Shown piece by piece: positions 14,787-36,374 of a DNA stretch of 36,374 nt. The notes beneath the pieces were generated by a model. It did not search any database, had not been told where the DNA came from, and was given only the letters and a program-made list of their open reading frames with translations. The DNA lies in assembly GCA_945871085.1 (NCBI GenBank), contig CAMBVX010000023.1, positions 1-36,374 on the forward strand, written 5' to 3'. Each line of letters begins with the position of its first letter. The stretch's first letter is position 1. Both the position numbers and the translations under genes were made by a program. The DNA comes from Opitutus sp. GAS368. GTDB lineage: Bacteria; Verrucomicrobiota; Verrucomicrobiia; Opitutales; Opitutaceae.

Positions 14787-15545
14787 TTATTTCTGAAACT
14801 GAAATGCGGTCATCTCCACCACGCCTTGCCGCGCCGGGCGATTGCGGCCACCGTAGATGGAGTCCTTCGCCGCCTCAAGCGGTCGCGCCTCAAACCGGAA
14901 GTCGTCCACCTGCATGCCCCGCATCGGCGCGATCTGCAGGTTATTGATCCAGTCGAATTGCGCCGCCAGCGCACCTTCCGAAGACGCTTCTGCTGTGGCC
15001 AGGCTCTTGCCGAGCGCCAACGAGCCAAGGGCCAGGCCTAGTGGCAACTCGCTGCGACGCGCAGCCGGCACCGTCACGGTGCGCGCAAAACTTAACTTCG
15101 TGGCGATGTTTTCGCCCGGGCCAAACAGCACGCCGGTTTCGACCGCAGCGGTGACGGGAGCCCCCACCGAATGCGCCGCGGGCATAACCGACACCGGACG
15201 GCCCAAAGAGGGGGGAGGGGCCTTGCGGTTAGCGACGAATACGAATGCGACGCACGCGGCCGCCGCGAAAAGACCCGCCGTGCCCAAAACGCCGGGTCTC
15301 CACGAGACGCGACCGGGCCGCTCCAACTCGGCCTCGCTGTTACCCACCACTTCAGTATCTGCGGCCTGGTGATTGAAGTCTCGGGCGAGCAGCGTGCAGG
15401 CCTTCTGGATACGACAATATTCTTGATATACGCGGCGGCGCTCCGGGCTGCGCTGGACCTCGGCCTCGAGCCGGGCGGCATCAGACGCAGCAATCTCGTG
15501 ATCGAGGTAGAGATTAAGTAGTTCAATAAATTCAGAGTCTTTCAT
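14787..15545 (-). CDS. Putative membrane anti-sigma factor
   Basis: A 252-residue protein with one predicted membrane segment at about residues 86-106 (VLGTAGLFAAAACVAFVFVA). The N-terminal cytoplasmic part (EFIELLNLYLDHEIAASDAARLE) has the length and amphipathic character of an anti-sigma domain; the zinc-binding HxxxCxxC motif is not intact (only C-x5-C with a distant His), so it may be a zinc-free variant. The C-terminal periplasmic part has no recognisable domain. It is directly downstream of, and in the same direction as, the ECF sigma factor at 15599-16204, the normal place for a cognate anti-sigma factor. The intergenic stretch is made of degenerate 12-base tandem repeats. Function is inferred from position and topology. 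Confidence 0.65.
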   Translation of the reverse strand: MKDSEFIELLNLYLDHEIAASDAARLEAEVQRSPERRRVYQEYCRIQKACTLLARDFNHQAADTEVVGNSEAELERPGRVSWRPGVLGTAGLFAAAACVAFVFVANRKAPPPSLGRPVSVMPAAHSVGAPVTAAVETGVLFGPGENIATKLSFARTVTVPAARRSELPLGLALGSLALGKSLATAEASSEGALAAQFDWINNLQIAPMRGMQVDDFRFEARPLEAAKDSIYGGRNRPARQGVVEMTAFQFQK

Positions 15546-26080: not shown

Positions 26081-27163
26081 ATGCCCCCTCTCACCGCCAC
26101 ATTCTTTCTCATCACCCTCGCTCTGACCGCGAGCCTGCGCGCCCAGCCCACCGCCGCCATGATCAATCCGCTGCAGTGGGAAGAACTGCCTGCCCTGCCG
26201 GACCGCGAGGGTTTTGCCGGCAGCTATGCCGGTGTGAGCGGGGGCGCTCTCCTCGTCGCCGGCGGCGCAAATTTCCCCGCCAAACGCCCATGGGAGGGCG
26301 GCACGAAAATCTGGTATGACCGCGTCTTCGTGCTCGAAGCCACGTCGACCGCGTGGCGCGAGACCGGGCGTTTGCCGCAGGCCGGCGGCTACGGCGTCTC
26401 CATCAACACTCCCGAGGGCTTCGTCCTCATCGGCGGGGGCAATGCGTCCCACAATTTCAACGAAGTCTGGCTGGCGGGTTGGGCGGTCAATTCCCTCACG
26501 TTCACCGCGTGGCCTCGTCTACCCAAACCGCTCGCGATGGCGGCCGGCGCGCTCGTCGGTCGCGTGATCTACGTCGCCGGCGGGCTCGACCGTCCCGACG
26601 CACCAAAAGCGCAGAACGCATTTTTCGCGCTCGACCTTGATCGTCTTTCGAACGGCTGGCGCGAACTCCCTGGTTGGCCAGGACCGGATCGTTTCCTGGC
26701 GACAGCCGGTGCCCACGATGGTGCCTTTTTTCTCTTCAGCGGAGCACGCCTCGTCGCCGACGCTGCCGCCCCCGGCAAGACTTCGCGCGAATGGCTCCGT
26801 GACGCGTATCGCTACACCTCCGCGACCGGTTGGAAACGCATCGCCGATCTGCCGCGCGTGGCGGTCGCCGCGCCCTCCCCGGCCCCCGCCGTTAATGGCC
26901 GCCTGCTGATCTTCGGCGGTGACGATGGTGCGCAGGCCGCCCTCGCGCCCACGGCCCACCAAGGATTCCCGCGCGACACCCTCGCCTACCGTGCATCGGA
27001 CGACACGTGGAGCCACGTCGGCGAAGTGCCCTTCTCGCTTGTCACGACCACCCTCACGACGTGGCGCGGACAGATCGTCGTGCCCGGCGGCGAAGCCCGG
27101 CCCGGCGTGCGCTCACCCCGCGTCTGGGCTGCGGAATTAAACCTACCTCCCGTCAAAAAATAG
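26081..27163 (+). CDS. nanM: Kelch-repeat sialate mutarotase-like protein (NanM family)
   Basis: A 360-residue protein with a signal peptide (FFLITLALTASLRAQ, cut near PTAA). It has kelch-type blades: WEELPALPDREGFAGSYAG, LLVAGGANFP, WRETGRLPQAGGYGVSI, VLIGGGN, VIYVAGGLD, FFLFSGARLV, LLIFGGDDG and IVVPGGEARP. The KRPWEGGTKIWYD segment and the GFAGSYAG start are characteristic of cyclically permuted mutarotases. NanM speeds conversion between sialic acid anomers in the periplasm after sialidase release. The gene is followed by a GntR-LacI regulator and shares the locus with sialidase and lyase genes, which supports the assignment. The leader is CCGTTCCCTCACCT, without a Shine-Dalgarno. Confidence 0.85.
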   Translation: MPPLTATFFLITLALTASLRAQPTAAMINPLQWEELPALPDREGFAGSYAGVSGGALLVAGGANFPAKRPWEGGTKIWYDRVFVLEATSTAWRETGRLPQAGGYGVSINTPEGFVLIGGGNASHNFNEVWLAGWAVNSLTFTAWPRLPKPLAMAAGALVGRVIYVAGGLDRPDAPKAQNAFFALDLDRLSNGWRELPGWPGPDRFLATAGAHDGAFFLFSGARLVADAAAPGKTSREWLRDAYRYTSATGWKRIADLPRVAVAAPSPAPAVNGRLLIFGGDDGAQAALAPTAHQGFPRDTLAYRASDDTWSHVGEVPFSLVTTTLTTWRGQIVVPGGEARPGVRSPRVWAAELNLPPVKK

Positions 27164-27204
27164 TTTCGCCGCCGCGCTGCGCTTGGTGCGTCCTCGGCAC
27201 GCCC

Positions 27205-28287
27205 ATGACGCTGATTCCCCATCGCACCGTCGCCAGTCAGCTCGCCGTGCAACTGCGCACCGAGGTGGAGAAAGGCACGTGGCGCGGTTGGTTGCCCAGC
27301 GAACGCGTTCTGAGCCGCACGCTCCAGGCGAGCCGCAACACCGTGCGCGCGGCGCTCGAACAATTGAAAGCCGAGCGTCTGATCGAACCCGTCCGCGGAC
27401 TTGGTAATCGGGTGGTCGGCGCAGCCCCATCCCCCTCCGCGCCGGTGCCGGCCAAGACCGTCGGCGTGCTCATCCCCGAGCCCATCGGCCGTCTGCGCCC
27501 GCTCATCGCGCTGTGGATCGACGAACTGAAGGATCTGCTCGTCGAGGAAGGTTACCGACTCCGCATCCACGAGGGCCGACAATATTATCAGACCAATCCG
27601 GCCCGCGCCCTCGAGCGACTGGTTGGCCAACACCCACACCGCGCGTGGGTCCTCACGCTCTCGTCGGAGGCGATGCAACGCTGGTTTGCGCGGCGCGGTG
27701 CCCCTTGCCTCGTCGCTGGTTCCACCTACCCGGACGTGACCCTGCCGCACTACGATTTAGACTACCGGGCGATTTGCCGGCACGCCGCCGGTGCGCTCCT
27801 GCGTCTCGGTCATCGCCGCCTCGCGCTGCTCAACCGCGAATCGCGGCGCGCCGGCGACGTCGGCAGTGAACGCGGATTTCTCGAAGGCGTGCGCCAATCG
27901 ACGCACACCGACGCCACCGCCGATATCGCCTACCACCGCGATGACGTCGAGTCAGTCGCACGCGCTCTGCGCTCCCTGCTCGACCGGAAAAACCCACCGA
28001 CTGCCCTCGTCGTGAGCAATTCCTACGCTTACCTCTCCACCGCCAGTCTCCTCGCCCAACGCGGGCTGCGCGTGCCCCAGGACATCGCGCTCATTTCGCG
28101 CGACGATGATCCGTTTCTGGCTTCGCTCGTCCCTGAGCCGGCGCGCTACCGCGTCGATCCGCATACGTTCGCCAAAAAAATCGTCGGATCACTTCGGCAG
28201 ATGCTCAACCGCAGCCCCGCCTTGCGTTCGCCCGCCCTGCTGCTGCCGAAATTTATCGTGGGTGGGTCCACGGCGGCGCGGCCGTAG
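27205..28287 (+). CDS. GntR-type HTH / LacI-type sensor hybrid transcription regulator
   Basis: A 360-residue regulator from ATG 27205 (MTLIPHRTVASQLAVQL). Residues 1-75 form a GntR winged helix (GWLPSERVLSRTLQASRNTVRAALEQLKAERLIEPVRG). Residues about 85-355 are a LacI-family periplasmic-binding-type sensor (VGVLIPEP, LDYRAICRHAAGALLRLGHRRLALL, VPQDIALISRDDD, and the C-terminal dimer segment). This GntR-LacI combination (AraR-like) is common in sugar loci. It is 41 bases after nanM and probably controls the sialic acid genes through the palindrome at 26000-26024. The TAG stop is provided by repeat copy B. Confidence 0.88.
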   Translation: MTLIPHRTVASQLAVQLRTEVEKGTWRGWLPSERVLSRTLQASRNTVRAALEQLKAERLIEPVRGLGNRVVGAAPSPSAPVPAKTVGVLIPEPIGRLRPLIALWIDELKDLLVEEGYRLRIHEGRQYYQTNPARALERLVGQHPHRAWVLTLSSEAMQRWFARRGAPCLVAGSTYPDVTLPHYDLDYRAICRHAAGALLRLGHRRLALLNRESRRAGDVGSERGFLEGVRQSTHTDATADIAYHRDDVESVARALRSLLDRKNPPTALVVSNSYAYLSTASLLAQRGLRVPQDIALISRDDDPFLASLVPEPARYRVDPHTFAKKIVGSLRQMLNRSPALRSPALLLPKFIVGGSTAARP

Positions 28288-28375: not shown

Positions 28376-29302
28376 TTACGCGACGGGCCGACAGGCGAAA
28401 TCAAAGAAACCGATCTCGGTTAGTTGCGCCCGCAGCGTGGTCAGCTGCGCCGCGCTGGGTTGCGCCAACGGCAATCGCACCGGACCGCAATCAACGCCGA
28501 GCATCGCCATGAGCGCCTTCGAGGCCGCGAGGTGGGTGACGCCGACGCCGTTACAAATCGCGATCATCTTGATCGCCGTGTCCTGCAACGTCCGCGCCGT
28601 GACCTCATCGCCGGCCTGGTGCGCCGCGAGCACACGGAGGTAAAGCGGGGCCGCGTAGTTGTAGGTGCTGCCCACGGCTCCCCGGGCACCGGCTTTCCAG
28701 CCTTCGAGCAATAATTCGTCGCGACCGAAAAGAATATCAAAGCGACCGCCCGCCGCAGTGACGCACGCGTTGTAGTCTGGAAAATCTTCATAGGTGTATT
28801 TCACGCCCACGAGGGTCGGAATCCGCTCGGCTGCCTTGGCCAGAAACTCCGCCACCGGCAGCGTCACGCCGGTCATTGAGGGAATGTTGTAGTAGTAAAA
28901 TGGCAGGGACGGCGCGGCGGAGGCAACCGCCTCACACCAGTCGACGAGTTCGTCCGTATTGCGCGGTTTGAAAAACATCGGAGCCAGCGCGGAGACCGCC
29001 GCCGCGCCGATTTTCTCCGCATGGGCGGTGAGTTTGCGGGCGTCTTCGAGGCACGTGTGACCGACGTGGACGATCACGGGCAGACTCTTGTCGGCGGACT
29101 CCACCCATTTGGCGGAAACGGCCAGACGCTCCTCCAGCGTCAGCGAAAGCCCCTCACCGGTCGTGCCACACACGAAGGCGGCGCTCACGCCGTTTTCCCG
29201 CAGGAACCGCGCGTAGGTCGGGATGACGTCGAGATTGATCGAGCGATCAGCGTTGAAGGGCGTGAAGGGTGCGGCGACGAGGCCGCGGAATCGATTTTGC
29301 AT
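28376..29302 (-). CDS. nanA: N-acetylneuraminate-lyase-like aldolase (DHDPS superfamily)
   Basis: A 308-residue class I aldolase from ATG 29302 (MQNRFRGLVAAPFTPF). The GTTGEG pyruvate motif is at residues 46-51, the Tyr138 motif is YYYNIPSMTGV, and the Schiff-base Lys168 is in VGVKYTYEDF. The VGVKYT segment and YNIP resemble N-acetylneuraminate lyase rather than the biosynthetic DapA (which here is a separate gene at 12413-13300 with IKEAGG). NanA splits sialic acid to N-acetylmannosamine and pyruvate in the cytoplasm. It follows the eroded sialidase by 20 bases. An ATG-free upstream extension of 15 codons is open but not expected. A related aldolase specificity (for example another keto-acid) cannot be excluded. 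Confidence 0.82.
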   Translation of the reverse strand: MQNRFRGLVAAPFTPFNADRSINLDVIPTYARFLRENGVSAAFVCGTTGEGLSLTLEERLAVSAKWVESADKSLPVIVHVGHTCLEDARKLTAHAEKIGAAAVSALAPMFFKPRNTDELVDWCEAVASAAPSLPFYYYNIPSMTGVTLPVAEFLAKAAERIPTLVGVKYTYEDFPDYNACVTAAGGRFDILFGRDELLLEGWKAGARGAVGSTYNYAAPLYLRVLAAHQAGDEVTARTLQDTAIKMIAICNGVGVTHLAASKALMAMLGVDCGPVRLPLAQPSAAQLTTLRAQLTEIGFFDFACRPVA

Positions 29303-29322: not shown

Positions 29323-30108
29323 TCAGGGAGCAGGGAGTGCGATGCACACGAAGGTGATGCGTCCGTAAGCACGTTTCTCACCGTTCTCGTAAAGGGAGCC
29401 GACGGTGTCGGGAGCCAGCGGAACAAGAGTGGAGTAGGCCGACCGACCGGGCGCGAGCACGGCCTGTTCACGCAAGGTCATTCCGTCGTCGCCACTCGTT
29501 TTCACCGTAAGCTGGAGGCGAGACTGGGCGGCGGGAGTGGGGGAAATCAAATGGCCGCCCGCGCCGGGCTTCGTCTCGTGGCGGATCAAACTCGCCTGAC
29601 ACACCGGCTCGACGAGCCGGTCGGCCGCGGTAATTTCGGACCGCGTCGCGCCGCCAGCTGTGCTCGGCGCGTGGGCGTGCACGGTGCGACCGTGATTCGA
29701 GCGCATGTTCATCATGAGCGTGCCGCGACCGTCGAAGAGTTCCGCCACCTGGCACATATTGACCTTCGGGCGAATGGGGGCGCCGACCTTCCTCGCCTTG
29801 CCGTGATCGGTCGAGTTGGAAATCCACACCGTGCCCGTGCCCTGGGCCATGCGGGCGGCGATCTCGCGCTCGCCATCGGTGCCGAGAGGGTGCGGGCGGA
29901 GCAGCCAGAGTGTGCCGGTGGACTCGTCGAGAACGGGGCACGGATTGCCGCAGGTATTGTCGGCGGCGTCCCCCACGACTTGTTGCGCGCTCCAAGTGAG
30001 GTCGCCATTTTGGCCGGACGTGAAGACATCACGCTGCTCGACGGCGGGCGCGGCAACGGCGGCGGTGCAGAGCACGAAGAAAGTGAAGAGGACTTTGCGA
30101 TGGAGCAT
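29323..30108 (-). CDS. Eroded sialidase homologue with internal deletions, probably inactive
   Basis: A 261-residue single open frame with a signal peptide (VLFTFFVLCTAAVAA). It begins like a BNR sialidase (VFTSGQNG), but the next normally conserved 40-50 residues, which hold the RIP motif Arg and the catalytic Asp, are missing: the text jumps to DLTWSAQQVV, then NTCGNPCPVLDE. A second gap follows STDHGKARKVG; about 70 residues with the ATGPG segment are absent before NMCQVAELFDG, where the catalytic Glu (normally NECxVxE) is Met. The third Arg region (QSRLQLTV) and nucleophile Tyr (GRSAYSTLVPL) remain, and EPVCQASLIR is intact. Sialidases of this family normally have 370-390 residues. It is in frame, so it might still be expressed, for example as a binding protein. 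It stands between TonB receptor 1 and nanA. Confidence 0.75.
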   Translation of the reverse strand: MLHRKVLFTFFVLCTAAVAAPAVEQRDVFTSGQNGDLTWSAQQVVGDAADNTCGNPCPVLDESTGTLWLLRPHPLGTDGEREIAARMAQGTGTVWISNSTDHGKARKVGAPIRPKVNMCQVAELFDGRGTLMMNMRSNHGRTVHAHAPSTAGGATRSEITAADRLVEPVCQASLIRHETKPGAGGHLISPTPAAQSRLQLTVKTSGDDGMTLREQAVLAPGRSAYSTLVPLAPDTVGSLYENGEKRAYGRITFVCIALPAP

Positions 30109-30176: not shown

Positions 30177-33100
30177 CTAGAACCGGCCCTTGAGCCCGAT
30201 GGTGATGATTGAGCCGAGTTCCTGGCGGCGGCGCTTCTTCAGGTATTCGGCGGCGCCGGGCGGATACTGCGTGTTGTCGATGTTGAAGCCGGGATCGTTG
30301 ATGTCGGTCATCGAGCCAAAGATCGCGAGCTGCTTGGTAAGGCTGAACTGAGCATTGAGGCCGACGCGGAGACGCTCGCCCTGGTAGTTAAAGGTTTCGG
30401 CGGGGATCCCGTTCGCGGTGCTGACGCCAACGGCGCCCTGACGCGTCTCGCCTTGATAGGTGAAGGTGAGCTTCACGTAGAAACGCGGGCGCACGAAATT
30501 GATGCCGCCGGCGTAGTTGCTCGGGGCGAAGGCAGAGAAGTCGGCTTGGTCGCCACCGCGGAGCCGAAGCCTGGTGGCGTTAGCGAAAATCTGAAAGCCG
30601 CGAGCCCACTGCGGGAGAAAGAGAAGCTGTTGATTGTAGGCGAACTCGAGGCCGGTGATGCGCGCGCTGCCACCATTCCTGAGCGTGGTGATGTCGTAGC
30701 CAAGGTAGAGCGGGTCGTCCGGGAGGCCGTAGCGATCGAGCAGCTCGGGCGTGGCGTCGGTCGTGACCGAGTCGAAGAAATCCTTGATGTTGCGCTGGAA
30801 CACGCCGACGGAGCCGTAGCCGCCCTTGATCTGGTAAGACTCGAGTGAGAGCTCGTAGCCGCGGGCGATCCACGGTTTCAGGCCGGTGTTGTTCACCGTG
30901 ATCGTCGGATTCGCGACGGTCGGCTCGGAGATCGCGCTGCCGGGAATGATGTTGTTGAGATTCGGCCGGGCGATGGTCTGCGAGTAGGCACCGCGGAGAA
31001 GGAGATTTTCGGCGAGCGTGTAGGTGAGGTTCAGGTTCGGATAGAAATCGTGGTAGGTGCGGATCGCGCGGGTGCCACGCTCCGTGTAGCGCAGGCGGGC
31101 CCGGGCGAGGACGTCGGTCGTGAGCAGCACGGGTTGAATGCCGGCCTGCGCGGCGTTGCCGTCAACGAGCGTGCCAGTGGCGGTCTTCTGGTATTGCGCG
31201 GTGGGATCGTCGAGCTGGCCCTGGCCGTCGTCCTTCGTCCGCTCGAAACGCACACCACCGACGACGAGCAGACGATTGTTCAGCAGGCGAACATCGCCGC
31301 GCACGTAGCCGGCGGTGATGGTCTCGGCGAGCCTGCGCGAGTTGGCCGTATAGTTCTGGAGGTAGGTCGCTTCGTTCTGCACGAACCAGTCGGGGTGCTC
31401 TTGGAAGAGCCGGTGGTATTTCGGGAGGCTGATCCAGCCGACCTTGTTGCCGAAGAGCGTGGGCGCCTCGTTGATGAAAGCGGTGTCGAAGACGTCGAAG
31501 TTCGACGCGAGCTTGGCGGCGCTCGTGATTTGGCCGTTGGGCGTGAACGTCCACGTCTTCGCGAACGAGCGCGCGTCGCGCACCTGTTGGTCGACGTAGA
31601 CGCCCGTCTTGAACGTGAACGGCAGCGGCGCGGAAAAGCGGCGCGTGAGGTCGAGCTTCGCCGTGCGTTTCTGCGAGCGAACCTTGTTCTGGTTGGACGT
31701 GGGATTGCCGAGCACGAAATTGCCGCCACCGAAGATGTCGACGGGCACGCGCGCGGCATTCGTGGCGGAGTAGCGCACCGGGATGTTCGCATCGCTCTCG
31801 CCGATGCCTTCGCCGCGCAGGATCAGGCCGGTGATGGAGGACGTCGCGGCGTTGAAGTGGCCATTGTCGATGTCGTCGAGGAACGACTCCGAGCGCGAAA
31901 GGGCACCGAGGGCATGGACGGTCCAGGTGTCGCCGCGGTGAACATATTTCACCGTGAGGTGCGTGGTGTCGGCACCGGTTTCCTGATTCGTGCCGGCGCC
32001 CTGGGTGACGGTGCCAACGGCAGTGGCGGCGCCTTGCGTGAAGGTGGCGTTGCCGGCGGCGCCGGCGCCATAGGTGGTGGCGTAGCTGAGGCGCATGATG
32101 TTGTTGGACACGTAGCGGTGCTGGATGCTCGCGCTCAACACGCCGCGCTCGGTGACCTTCCAGTCCGCGCCGGCTTGGGCGGACCAGGACTGGATGACAT
32201 TGGCGAGGCTGAGCCAGGTGCTGGTGCGCTGAAAGCCGTTGTTGAAATTCCAGTCGGCTTGGGTGTCGAGGGCCCCGTCGCGCTCCATCGGCTTCAGGCG
32301 CCACGAGCGCGAGCCTCCGAAGCTGAGGGCGAACTTCCGGTTCACCGGATGAAGGTAGGTGAAATCAAACGACGGCTGTTGGAATTCGGGGCTCAGTTTT
32401 TTCGTGGGGCCGCGTGGGCCGCCGTCGAAGGTGAGTCCGGTGTAGCCGTCGGTGATGAGGTAGACCTTGTAGTCGAAGACCGGGCGCTTCGCCTCAAAGC
32501 CGCTTTTACTGATGATGTTGACGGAACCGCCGATGCCGTTGGCGGGCTGGTCGGGCACGGGGGTCTTGGTGACTTCGATGCGCGAAATGTTGGCCATCGG
32601 GACGTCGAGGAGGGATTGCGTGCGGCTGTTGCCGCGGGCGCTGGCGAGGTCCGCGCCGTCGAGCTGCATCACGGTGTTGCTCTCGGGGAAGCCGCGCAGC
32701 GCCATGGAGCTGGCGGTCTGACCGCCGTCGACGATGCCGACACCGGGGAGGAAACGCATGAGTTCGCCGATGCCTTCGGCGTTGCGGTCGCCGAACTCGT
32801 CGAAGGCGACGATCTGCTTGATGTTGGCGGCGCTCTTGCGCTCGTTCTGCGCGATAGCTTGGGCGCTCATTTCGCGGTCGGCGACGACGTTGTAGGTCGC
32901 GAGCGTGACGACGGAACTCGCGGCAGTGGCACCGGCGACGGCGAGATCGAAATCGCGCTGCGCGACGGCGGCGGCCGTGACCGGCACGACGGCGGTGGCG
33001 GGTTCGAGGCCGACGTAGGACACGGCAAGACGAGCTTCACCAGCGGGCACGCCCGCGAGGCGATAGGCACCGAAGTCGTCGGTTTCTGTGGTGAGCTGCG

Positions 33101-33263
33101 TGCCCTCAACGACGACGCGGGCGGCGCGGAGGGCGCTGCCAGTGGCGGCGTTGAAGATGCGGCCCTCGATCGCGCCGGTGGGGGCGGATTGCGCGCGAGC
33201 GCCGACGGCGACGGCGAAGATGAGTGCGAGGAACAGCGCAGCGAAACGGAGTGGGGCCTTCAT
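30177..33263 (-). CDS. TonB-dependent receptor 1 with N-terminal carboxypeptidase-like domain
   Basis: A 1028-residue outer-membrane receptor from ATG 33263 (MKAPLRFAALFLALIF), with the signal peptide cut near RAQS. Residues about 32-110 are a CarboxypepD_reg-like beta domain (GAIEGRIFNAATGSALRAARV and DDFGAYRLAGVPAGEARLAVS). The plug follows (IVAFDEFGDRNAEGIGELMRFLPGV, then GGSVNIISKSG), then the 22-strand barrel, ending in a terminal aromatic residue (GLKGRF). No SusD partner is nearby, as usual for Verrucomicrobiota. It probably imports sialic acid or oligosaccharides, judged from its neighbours. It follows the intact sialidase after 56 bases and is clearly paralogous to receptor 2 (34626 onward) along the whole shared C-terminal part. 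Confidence 0.9.
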   Translation of the reverse strand: MKAPLRFAALFLALIFAVAVGARAQSAPTGAIEGRIFNAATGSALRAARVVVEGTQLTTETDDFGAYRLAGVPAGEARLAVSYVGLEPATAVVPVTAAAVAQRDFDLAVAGATAASSVVTLATYNVVADREMSAQAIAQNERKSAANIKQIVAFDEFGDRNAEGIGELMRFLPGVGIVDGGQTASSMALRGFPESNTVMQLDGADLASARGNSRTQSLLDVPMANISRIEVTKTPVPDQPANGIGGSVNIISKSGFEAKRPVFDYKVYLITDGYTGLTFDGGPRGPTKKLSPEFQQPSFDFTYLHPVNRKFALSFGGSRSWRLKPMERDGALDTQADWNFNNGFQRTSTWLSLANVIQSWSAQAGADWKVTERGVLSASIQHRYVSNNIMRLSYATTYGAGAAGNATFTQGAATAVGTVTQGAGTNQETGADTTHLTVKYVHRGDTWTVHALGALSRSESFLDDIDNGHFNAATSSITGLILRGEGIGESDANIPVRYSATNAARVPVDIFGGGNFVLGNPTSNQNKVRSQKRTAKLDLTRRFSAPLPFTFKTGVYVDQQVRDARSFAKTWTFTPNGQITSAAKLASNFDVFDTAFINEAPTLFGNKVGWISLPKYHRLFQEHPDWFVQNEATYLQNYTANSRRLAETITAGYVRGDVRLLNNRLLVVGGVRFERTKDDGQGQLDDPTAQYQKTATGTLVDGNAAQAGIQPVLLTTDVLARARLRYTERGTRAIRTYHDFYPNLNLTYTLAENLLLRGAYSQTIARPNLNNIIPGSAISEPTVANPTITVNNTGLKPWIARGYELSLESYQIKGGYGSVGVFQRNIKDFFDSVTTDATPELLDRYGLPDDPLYLGYDITTLRNGGSARITGLEFAYNQQLLFLPQWARGFQIFANATRLRLRGGDQADFSAFAPSNYAGGINFVRPRFYVKLTFTYQGETRQGAVGVSTANGIPAETFNYQGERLRVGLNAQFSLTKQLAIFGSMTDINDPGFNIDNTQYPPGAAEYLKKRRRQELGSIITIGLKGRF

Positions 33264-33319
33264 TGTAGAGGGACGAAGCAAGCGACTTTCGTTTGGCAAG
33301 GAGCAGCAATCGGCCGGAG

Positions 33320-34615
33320 TCAACGGGTGCGCACCGCGGGCACGGAGGAGTCGCGGCCGGCAGTGAGCCATTCGAGATTAAACCGGGCGAGCGTGAGGCG
33401 GGCGTAGGGCCAGTCGGTGCGGGTCGAGTTGGGGCGCGTGGCACCGGGACGTCCATTCTCGTAGAGGCAGAGGATCGTGCCGTCGGGCAGCACCGCGAGA
33501 TCGCTGTAGGCGCTGGGGCCCGGTTCGAGCGAGCGCGTCGCCGCCCAGGTCCGTCCGTCGTCCGAGCTGAGCTTCACGGAGAGATTCTCGCGGTCGCGGC
33601 GAGAGCCGGGGGTGGCCGCGCCGCTGGCGCGCGCCAGAGAGACGGGGCCGGAGAAGAGCAGGCGCGTTTTCCCGGGCGCGGCCGGATCGTCGTAGCTGAA
33701 GAGGCTCGCCTGGCAGATGGGCTCGATGAGCGCCTCGGCAAACTCAGGCGGGCTCCAGCCGGTGGATCCGTCGCGACTGAAGGTGACGATCTTTCGATGG
33801 ACCGGGGCATGGTTGCGCGCGATCAGCATCACGCGCCCGTCGCCCAGCTGCGCCACGATGGGCTCGTTCGTGCCCGGCGTGTCGACCGCGGCGCGGGGGA
33901 CGGCGATTTCACCACGTAGCCAGGTCGCGCCGCGATCATCGCTAAAGATTGTCGCCACCACGGCGGTGCCGTGCGCGCCGCCCTCGGCTTTCGCCAGCCA
34001 TACGGGGACGACCAAGCGACCGCTCCGGAGTTGGATGCCATGGCCGGGCCCCGTCGCGATCACGCGCCACGGCCACTCGGGACGAAAGCGATCGGCGGCG
34101 GCGGTGATGTCGACGGGCCGGCTCCACGTGAGGCCGTCGTCGGTGCTGCGCACGTAGAACGTGCGCAGGTATTCCACGCAGTAGATGAGGTGCACGGAGC
34201 CATCGCGGTCGGCGATCGCCACGGGGTTGTTGACGGTCTGCTGGCCCGGGTCGCCGATCACCTTGCCGGGAGGTTGGTCGGCGTTGGCGGGATTACGCGG
34301 CAGGCGCGGACCGACGTGGGCGACTTGCCGGGCGCGATCGAATGTGCGGCCACCGTCAGTGCTGCGGCGCCGGTGGATCTCGATCTCGCCCCAGTCGAGA
34401 CCGGAGAACTTTCGCGCCTCGCAAAACGCGAGGACGGTGCCCCGCGCCGTGACGACGAGGCACGGGATGCGGTAGGAAACGAACCCGTCGGTCTTTTCCT
34501 CGAAAAGATGGGTTTTCTCCAGCAACGGCGCGGCGGCAACCGTGGAGACGGCACTCCCCAACGCGGCGGCGAGCGTAAACGTGGCGGTCGAGATCAGAGC
34601 AGAAGAACAGCGCAT
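33320..34615 (-). CDS. Exo-alpha-sialidase (BNR/Asp-box), apparently intact
   Basis: A 431-residue secreted enzyme from ATG 34615 (another ATG two codons upstream is equally possible) with a signal peptide ending near VAAAP. The RIP motif is SYRIPCLVV with Arg49, and five Asp-box-like motifs are visible: RSTDGGRTF, RSTDDGLTW, FSDDRGATW, FSRDGSTGW and LSSDDGRTW. The catalytic Glu is in NEPIVAQ, a second Arg in LIARNH, and the nucleophile Tyr in GPSAYSDLAVL. It releases terminal sialic acid from host or environmental glycoconjugates. It starts about ten bases after the stop of receptor 2, so the two genes form one unit. The much longer open frame upstream is a shadow. Confidence 0.92.
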   Translation of the reverse strand: MRCSSALISTATFTLAAALGSAVSTVAAAPLLEKTHLFEEKTDGFVSYRIPCLVVTARGTVLAFCEARKFSGLDWGEIEIHRRRSTDGGRTFDRARQVAHVGPRLPRNPANADQPPGKVIGDPGQQTVNNPVAIADRDGSVHLIYCVEYLRTFYVRSTDDGLTWSRPVDITAAADRFRPEWPWRVIATGPGHGIQLRSGRLVVPVWLAKAEGGAHGTAVVATIFSDDRGATWLRGEIAVPRAAVDTPGTNEPIVAQLGDGRVMLIARNHAPVHRKIVTFSRDGSTGWSPPEFAEALIEPICQASLFSYDDPAAPGKTRLLFSGPVSLARASGAATPGSRRDRENLSVKLSSDDGRTWAATRSLEPGPSAYSDLAVLPDGTILCLYENGRPGATRPNSTRTDWPYARLTLARFNLEWLTAGRDSSVPAVRTR

Positions 34616-34625
34616 GGGCATGATT

Positions 34626-36374
34626 TCAAAACGACCCGCGCACGCCGACGTTCGTGTAGAAGCCGAGTTCCTGCCAACGCGTCGGCTTGGCGTAGTCGGG
34701 CGTGCCGGGCGCGTAACGCTGGAGGTCTTGCACGAATCCGCCCCAGTCAACCACCGACGCGTAGAGCGCGTAGCGGCGCGTGAGGTTGTAGGTGGCGTTA
34801 ACGCCGAACCGCATGCGCTTGGCCTGGTAGTTGAAGGTGTCGGCCGGCACCGTGGCACTCGCCGCGACGGCGCCGGTGCGGGTATCGCCGAGATAGCTGA
34901 TCGTGGTTTTGAGCGCGAGACGGCCGCGGACGAAATTGATGCCGCCGCCGAGCGACTTGGGGTTGTAGCCGGAGAAATCGGCCGTGTTGCTGCCGCTGAG
35001 ATTGAGCTTGGTGAAGTTGACGAATGCTTGCAGCCCGCGCGCCCACGAAGGCAGGAACGTGAGCGATTGCCGATAGGACATCTCGAAGCCGTCGATCTGG
35101 GCGTCGCCGGCGTTGGTGCGCGTGGCGATCTGGTAGGTGAGCAGCGAGGGATCGCTTTCGAGGCCATACTGCTCGAGGAGCGCGGGTGTGGCCGCGGTGC
35201 TCACGCTGCCAAAGAAATCCTTCACGCTCTTGCGAAACACACCGATCGAGCCGAACCCGTCCTTGATCTGGTAGCTTTCGAGGGAGAGGTCGTAGCTCTT
35301 CGCGCTCCACGGCTTCAGGCCGGCGTTGTTGACCGTGATCACCGGGTTGGCGACGTCCGGATCCGAAATCGAAGTGCTGGGAATGACGTTGTTGATATTG
35401 GGGCGGCCGAGCGTGTGCGCGTAGGCGGCGCGGAGGATGAGGCTCTCCGAGAGATTGAACGACGCGTTCACACTTGGGTAGTAGCCGTCGTAGTGACGAT
35501 CAGCCGTCGCGCCGCGCTCCACGTAGCGGAGTTTGCGCAACACGAGCGGATCCGTGGAGAGCGGGACGCGCTGGATACCGGCGAGGTTGGGATTGCCGTC
35601 GACGAGTGTGCCGTTCGCGTTGCGCTGAAACTGGGCGTTGATGTCGTTCAGCGGGCCCGTGCCCTTGTCGTCAGTGCGCTCGTAGCGGACGCCGGCCACC
35701 ACCCAGAGCCGGTTCTTGAAGAGACGCGCATCGGCGCGGAAGTAACCGGCCGAAATGGTCTCCCGCAGCTTGCGCGAGTTATTGACGAAGTCTTGGTGAA
35801 TCTGCGCTTCATCGAGGACGAACCACGCGGGGTTCGCCTTGTAGAGATCGAACATTTTCTGACCACTGATCCAGCGCACCTTTTTACCAAAGACGGTCGG
35901 CGAATCGGTGATGAAGGCCTCGTCGAAGACATCGAACCGGCTCGCGAGGCGGTCGGCGGCGAGCGTTGAGCCGTTGGGACGGAACGCCCACGTCTTCCCG
36001 GAGCGGCGCTGGTCAGTGGTGTAGGTGTCGATGGCCGTCCCGACCTTAAGCGTGAACGGAATTTTACCGAGAAAGTCCCGGGCCAGATCGAGACGGAGGT
36101 TGCGCTTGTGCGTGTTCCAATCGGGCTGATTGGTCGTCGGGTTGCCGAGTGTGTAGTTGCCGCCGTCGTAGACATCGACCGGAGGACCGGCGCGCGTGGC
36201 GCTGTAACGCGTGGGGATGGTGCCGCCCGACGCCGGGATGTCGTCACCGCGGAGCACGACGCCGGTGAGCGTGGCGGGCGCAAGGTTGAAAAAGCCCGCA
36301 TCAATGTCGTGGCGGTCGGAAGCGGAGCCGGAGAAAGTGCCGTTCGCCTCCCAGCGCCAGAGGTCGCCGCGATG
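34626..36374 (-). CDS. TonB-dependent receptor 2, C-terminal part (runs off the window)
   Basis: The frame is open to the right edge; 582 codons are visible and the N-terminal domain and plug are beyond the window. The first visible residues are HRGDLWRWEANG, which align with HRGDTWTVHALG of receptor 1. Later segments are also shared, for example NINNVIPSTSISDPDVANPVITVNN against NLNNIIPGSAISEPTVANPTITVNN, and LSLESYQIKDGFGSIGVFRK. The C-terminus is GVRGSF. It is an outer-membrane barrel for TonB-driven import, and its linkage to a sialidase suggests a sialylated or sialic acid ligand. Start and full length cannot be given. Confidence 0.88.
   Translation of the reverse strand, partial: HRGDLWRWEANGTFSGSASDRHDIDAGFFNLAPATLTGVVLRGDDIPASGGTIPTRYSATRAGPPVDVYDGGNYTLGNPTTNQPDWNTHKRNLRLDLARDFLGKIPFTLKVGTAIDTYTTDQRRSGKTWAFRPNGSTLAADRLASRFDVFDEAFITDSPTVFGKKVRWISGQKMFDLYKANPAWFVLDEAQIHQDFVNNSRKLRETISAGYFRADARLFKNRLWVVAGVRYERTDDKGTGPLNDINAQFQRNANGTLVDGNPNLAGIQRVPLSTDPLVLRKLRYVERGATADRHYDGYYPSVNASFNLSESLILRAAYAHTLGRPNINNVIPSTSISDPDVANPVITVNNAGLKPWSAKSYDLSLESYQIKDGFGSIGVFRKSVKDFFGSVSTAATPALLEQYGLESDPSLLTYQIATRTNAGDAQIDGFEMSYRQSLTFLPSWARGLQAFVNFTKLNLSGSNTADFSGYNPKSLGGGINFVRGRLALKTTISYLGDTRTGAVAASATVPADTFNYQAKRMRFGVNATYNLTRRYALYASVVDWGGFVQDLQRYAPGTPDYAKPTRWQELGFYTNVGVRGSF

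Follow-up and report, generated by a model that had tools for sequence, protein, structure and literature searches.

A shortened sialidase homologue in an Opitutus sialic-acid locus is very probably the remnant of a decaying gene

The minus-strand open reading frame (ORF) at 29323-30108 is very probably what is left of the original sialidase gene of its locus, and its amino acids show no detectable constraint. It is an ordinary gene, probably redundant, in mid-decay; a new function for it is not supported. The original prediction had named recent neutral erosion and a selected non-catalytic role as the two explanations of its in-frame losses, of which the first is borne out and the second is not. 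The window analyzed is an entire contig (G000:C23; 36,374 nucleotides) from a fragmented assembly of 630 contigs. This genome is referred to as G000 and the other members of the genus as G001 to G008.

The gene and its locus

The minus strand of this sialic-acid locus carries, in order, a receptor, a complete sialidase, another receptor, the short ORF, and a nanA-like lyase. A GntR-type regulator and a NanM-like mutarotase are found on the plus strand. The features are as follows:

26081-27163, plus strand: NanM-like mutarotase
27007-28287, plus strand: GntR-type regulator with a Peripla_BP_3 domain; start uncertain
28376-29302, minus strand: nanA-like lyase (DHDPS family), downstream of the short ORF
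29323-30108, minus strand: shortened sialidase homologue of 261 codons, very probably decaying (ORF, Pfam, dN/dS, codon model, invariant-site loss)
29389-29391, minus strand: Y240, Tyr of the Tyr/Glu pair, retained
29518-29520, minus strand: R197, third Arg of the triad, retained
29701-29703, minus strand: R136, second Arg of the triad, retained
29755-29757, minus strand: catalytic Glu changed to Met118 in G000 (Glu retained in G007)
29800-29814, minus strand: approximate junction of deletion 2 (69 codons), with a fused Asp box STDHG
30001-30006, minus strand: approximate junction of deletion 1 (44 codons; RIP Arg and Asp gone), DG joined to a DGG repeat
30031-30108, minus strand: signal-peptide-like start, codons 1-26, judged by eye
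30177-33371, minus strand: TonB-dependent receptor upstream of the short ORF, under purifying selection
33320-34615, minus strand, within ORF 33320-35167: complete second sialidase, under purifying selection; the start (34615 or 34621) is an estimate
34626-36257, minus strand: second TonB-dependent receptor, cut by the contig end

The short ORF begins with ATG and contains no internal stops, in agreement with the claim of an open frame, and a signal-peptide-like start is kept. Its score against Pfam BNR_2 is 47.6 bits (cutoff 31.4), the solved structures that it matches are sialidases or are named after them, and alignment reveals two internal deletions of 44 and 69 codons. The family, in which 78 of 252 genomes hold a match, was represented by 16 complete aligned proteins, and six active-site positions are invariant in all 16: R44, D69, E235, R253, R313, and Y356 (L108 numbering). 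The catalytic residues we take to be those assigned in the Micromonospora sialidase (1eur). In an ungapped alignment to 1eur the Arg, Glu, Arg, Arg, and Tyr match and the Asp is off by one residue; the Asp stretch is deleted from the short ORF under either placement. The RIP Arg and the Asp stretch fall inside deletion 1 and the Glu is now Met118, which confirms the loss of these three residues. The homology to BNR sialidases is clear, and the complete Arg triad with Asp and the Glu/Tyr pair is lacking. Three Asp-box Trp residues have been lost and one is retained; two are absent from both G000 and G007.

The second sialidase, which did not figure in the original prediction, agrees with 1eur at six of six active-site positions in an alignment judged by eye. 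In the stretches fetched from family relatives G064 and G078 the gene order is receptor, sialidase, nanA, and the receptor at 34626-36257 is nearest (79-81%) to their sialidase-adjoining receptor. In G000, G003, G007, and G008 a second sialidase with its own receptor separates the old sialidase from the old receptor, an arrangement found on a single contig in G000 and G003 and pieced together from contig ends in G007 and G008. Compared with congeners, the region 30177-34615 exhibits a synonymous divergence of about.2-.3, and the flanking genes mostly.5-.9 (.36 for IMP with G008). This suggests that the second sialidase and receptor may have spread between species as a module by recombination.

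Elsewhere in the window, a 252-residue ORF at 14787-15545 (minus strand) has no Pfam match, is rated not coding by a periodicity filter, and has many indels relative to G007; it is possibly not a gene. GH33 sialidases are named among the abundant families of freshwater Verrucomicrobia in one report (PMC5673642). Among the papers listed by literature searches, none was recognised as treating this gene or frame-keeping pseudogenes.

Decay among relatives and rate of change

The short protein has a match in all nine genomes of the genus, although those in G001, G004, and G005 are other sialidases. The gene itself forms a decay series: intact, frameshifted, interrupted by a stop, shortened, reduced to a 79-residue stump, and not found. 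It is apparently intact in G006, where it is split across two contigs. In G002 it is broken by a frameshifting deletion, and in G003 it is full length with an in-frame TAA and has lost 17 of 95 invariant positions; two versions occur in this genome, with 8 differences over 284 bases. G007 shares the shortened gene and both deletions (64% protein identity), and G008 has deletion 1, in an in-frame stump read over two contig ends. No recognisable copy was found upstream of nanA in G001, G004, or G005 (in G004 one of two contigs is informative, since the other stops about 95 bases before nanA). Such a range of states, from frameshift and premature stop to stump and failure to find any copy, is what neutral erosion would leave. 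It had been foreseen that relatives might carry the shortened form with the catalytic residues supplied elsewhere; G007 does have the shortened form, and its locus also includes a complete sialidase gene.

Both deletions are older than the split of G000 and G007, and the Glu-to-Met change is confined to the G000 line. Not every case follows from redundancy: the old gene is broken in G002, where no second sialidase was found with the short protein as query (the genome is 89% complete), and is kept in G006, where a relative of the second sialidase is present.

Several assemblies break within this gene (G003:C45/C344, G006:C282/C295, and G008:C339/C94), and the two G003 ends disagree at some bases where they overlap, a pattern that a polymorphic gene in decay might produce. 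In G006 (L098:606-1057) two remnants of a G000-type receptor (82% and 67% identity) adjoin the old sialidase beside a different receptor; they may represent a second gene decaying in this locus.

Between G000 and G007 the short ORF exhibits a dN of.221 and a dS of.188 (NG86), and the resulting dN/dS of 1.18 takes no account of the substitution spectrum. Divergence is similar at codon positions 1, 2, and 3 (.160,.227, and.168). By comparison, the adjoining receptor has a dN of.023 and dS of.201, and the second sialidase.033 and.243. Four-fold sites have changed at 15 of 112 in the short ORF and 83 of 559 in the receptor. Since dS is higher in the flanking genes (.59-.91 in nanA, GntR, NanM, and IMP;.50 in the outer receptor), the stretch from the second sialidase to the short ORF has a more recent common history, probably through recombination, and the adjoining receptor is therefore a fair neutral yardstick.

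A branch codon model gives an omega of.052 for the background,.168 for the stem,.665 for G000,.977 for G007,.814 for G008, and.276 for G003. It employs 10 of the 16 rows on a fixed topology with a four-way root, which is partly at odds with the inferred tree, itself weakly supported at several outgroup nodes and built with the first 21 codons masked in the 13 rows other than G000, G007, and G008. In the codon alignment G007 and G008 were mapped onto G000 by hand with one 2-codon gap, and in the other rows the columns for two G000 codons were shifted to positions beside TW. An omega of 1 on the three shortened tips jointly is not rejected (LR 0.71, df 3, p.87), whereas the background value of.052 is, for both G000 (p 4.6e-7) and G007 (p 5e-32). 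For G000 omega is poorly bounded (fixed at 0.25, p.058; at 2, p.24; at 4, p.13). On the stem an omega of 1 is rejected (p.0067; for G003, p.062), and a value below 1 is expected there if the gene worked during part of the stem.

Changes between G000 and G007 affect 36 of 94 positions that are invariant among 12 relatives and 52 of 139 variable ones (p.89). Invariant positions have been lost at 21 of 96 in G000 and 36 of 94 in G007; leave-one-out controls on the 12 rows, in which the G002 row is itself broken by a frameshift, lose 0-7 of 94-103. The similar divergence of the three codon positions, an omega indistinguishable from 1, and unprotected invariant sites uphold the suggestion of neutral erosion; together with sporadic loss among close relatives they are the marks of a neutral remnant. 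Polarised changes number 21 of 349 on the G000 line and 58 of 386 on the G007 line, and four-fold changes in the receptor are similar on both (24 vs 30). The slower G000 line of the ORF, beside similar receptor rates, makes it possible that some constraint acted on G000 until recently. The signal-peptide codons differ between G000 and G007 at 8 of 78 nucleotides, and at 4 of 26 amino acids vs 88 of 233 elsewhere (p 0.03, uncorrected).

The decaying gene tends towards higher GC. On the G007 line (L097:3095-3871) AT-to-GC changes are found at 29 of 140 sites and GC-to-AT changes at 18 of 246 (p.0002), and in G003 (L101, L102) at 28 of 200 and 19 of 318 (p.003), with 13 of 126 and 11 of 228 (p.07) in another contig piece. 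The commonest class in both is A:T-to-C:G. The G000 line shows no significant GC bias (6/117 vs 9/232). This gain contrasts with bacterial mutation generally, which is usually reported to be AT-biased.

The open frame and other explanations

In G064 exactly 44 codons separate the DG of GADGYH from that of STDGGKTW, and exactly 69 separate SKDHGATW from SDDHGATW. The deletion lengths thus equal the spacing of internal in-phase repeats, so that each deletion joins one repeat to another in phase and in-frame loss needs no selection. The repeat ends are identical at 10 of 21 bases for the first pair and 20 of 30 for the second; to judge from the observed spacing, slippage or recombination between repeats is the likely cause of the deletions. 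One antisense frame of the same DNA, another feature outside the original prediction, is also stop-free for 262 codons in G000 (one stop in G007), and the open frame consequently says little here. The contention that in-frame loss speaks against a pseudogene must therefore be divided: the two large deletions follow the repeat spacing and lend it nothing, and the scarcity of small frameshifts is in its favor.

The short ORFs of G000 and G007 differ by a single 6-nt indel (broken into two by blastn) and about 139 substitutions (139 or 140 in two counts), and neither has acquired a stop. Spacers show 66 indels per 572 substitutions between G000 and G007, 45 per 373 with G003, and 40 per 404 with G008, rough ratios from blastn gaps with coding regions inferred from three-base periodicity. 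Overall the spacers have about 0.06-0.12 indels per substitution, and three less diverged ones, counted by hand (2 indels per about 35 substitutions), give.058. The probability of seeing one indel or none is.23 at a ratio of.02,.08 at.03, and.003 at.058. The simulated probability of no stop on the G007 branch is.19 under its own spectrum and.10,.035, and.03 under three others; on the short G000 branch of.05 it is.40-.59.

Fewer indels and stops than the spacers suggest leave room for possible selection on the frame, for example against polarity on nanA. In such a case the peptide would be irrelevant and translation through the region would be selected, since stops or frameshifts would lower nanA expression by Rho polarity or translational coupling. 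The gene would be a "spacer ORF" kept translatable, perhaps with its signal peptide, inside a receptor-sialidase-nanA transcript, its sequence drifting down to the 79-codon stump of G008. The likely nanA ATG (29302-29300) is only 20 nt past the stop of the short ORF, and every deletion in the short clade, including that of the stump, is in frame, with no stop or frameshift in G000, G007, or the stump. However, G003 has its TAA, G002 its frameshift, and three genomes carry nanA without a recognisable copy, which makes it doubtful that frame-keeping, if present, is strong or general; both large deletions are in frame for reasons of repeat spacing, and an indel ratio of.02-.03 would make the result not unusual. 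We consider this explanation unlikely, at perhaps one chance in several.

A selected non-catalytic protein that binds or presents sialic acid together with the TonB receptor is very improbable. It would account for the retained frame, start, and signal-peptide-like segment, for two of three triad Arg and the Tyr, and for the low G000 rate. However, omega is about 1 on all shortened tips, family-invariant sites are unprotected, both G000 and G007 have lost the same two Asp-box Trp, and three congeners have no copy that was found. AlphaFold yields a mean pLDDT of 46.6 and a pTM of.45 for the short protein (18-row alignment) as against 86.5 and.87 for an intact orthologue (16 rows). A six-bladed propeller is thus not confidently predicted for the short protein, although a poor model is no proof against a fold. 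Purifying selection on the retained protein, as a lectin would require, was not found, and with neither constraint nor a confident fold the lectin was rejected.

Diversifying selection on an exposed secreted peptide, for which the NG86 ratio above 1 and the excess at codon position 2 might be cited, is more improbable still: omega is nowhere significantly above 1 (a value of 2 on G007 fits worse, p.068), the excess at position 2 fits lower GC and faster change at A/T sites, and losses of Trp, Gly, and Pro look destructive. An assembly or sequencing artefact, to be considered given the many contigs and the homologous gene at contig ends in G003, G006, and G008, has next to no chance of being correct and was rejected, because both deletions are shared with G007, another species, and the first also with G008; the flanking genes are normally constrained.

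Probable course of the decay and comparison with known systems

The preferred explanation, a decaying remnant of the original sialidase gene, would have the following course. With a second sialidase and receptor at the locus, the old enzyme probably ceased to be needed. Stretches of 44 and 69 codons would have been lost by recombination or slippage at the in-phase repeats, which left the frame intact. Point changes accumulated at about the neutral rate, among them the Glu-to-Met change on the G000 line, which came after deletion 1 had removed the Arg and Asp. The product, a secreted fragment, would be expected to be unstable or not to fold and to have no sialidase activity, and the sialidase activity of the locus would come from the adjacent complete enzyme.

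An open frame and signal peptide in GC-rich DNA are accordingly poor evidence of a new role for a defunct enzyme, and the internal repeats of propeller genes permit large in-frame losses. Within the genus a single gene can be followed through successive stages of decay, from intact to not found. Frame-keeping, if true, would be a clean case in which translation itself, not the protein, is selected.

The intact relatives L108 and L109 are presumably bacterial exo-sialidases of the GH33 type (PDB 1eur/1w8n). The short ORF is homologous to these along its retained blocks, with conserved TCGNPCP, CQ, MRS, the R of SRLQ, and YENG, and shares a signal-peptide-like start and a nan locus setting; it differs in lacking the RIP Arg, Asp, Glu, and 113 codons, and in having no confidently predicted propeller. 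The catalytically inactive trans-sialidase lectins of Trypanosoma keep their fold. The short ORF resembles them as a sialidase homologue that, from its residues, would be without catalysis, whereas it is without detectable constraint and has lost about 30% of its protein. Bacterial pseudogenes that stay in frame while selection is relaxed are a known kind. The short ORF departs from these in having few small indels for its substitutions, and is like them in its omega of about 1, its lost invariant residues, the complete paralogue nearby, and congeners in which the gene decays to absence.
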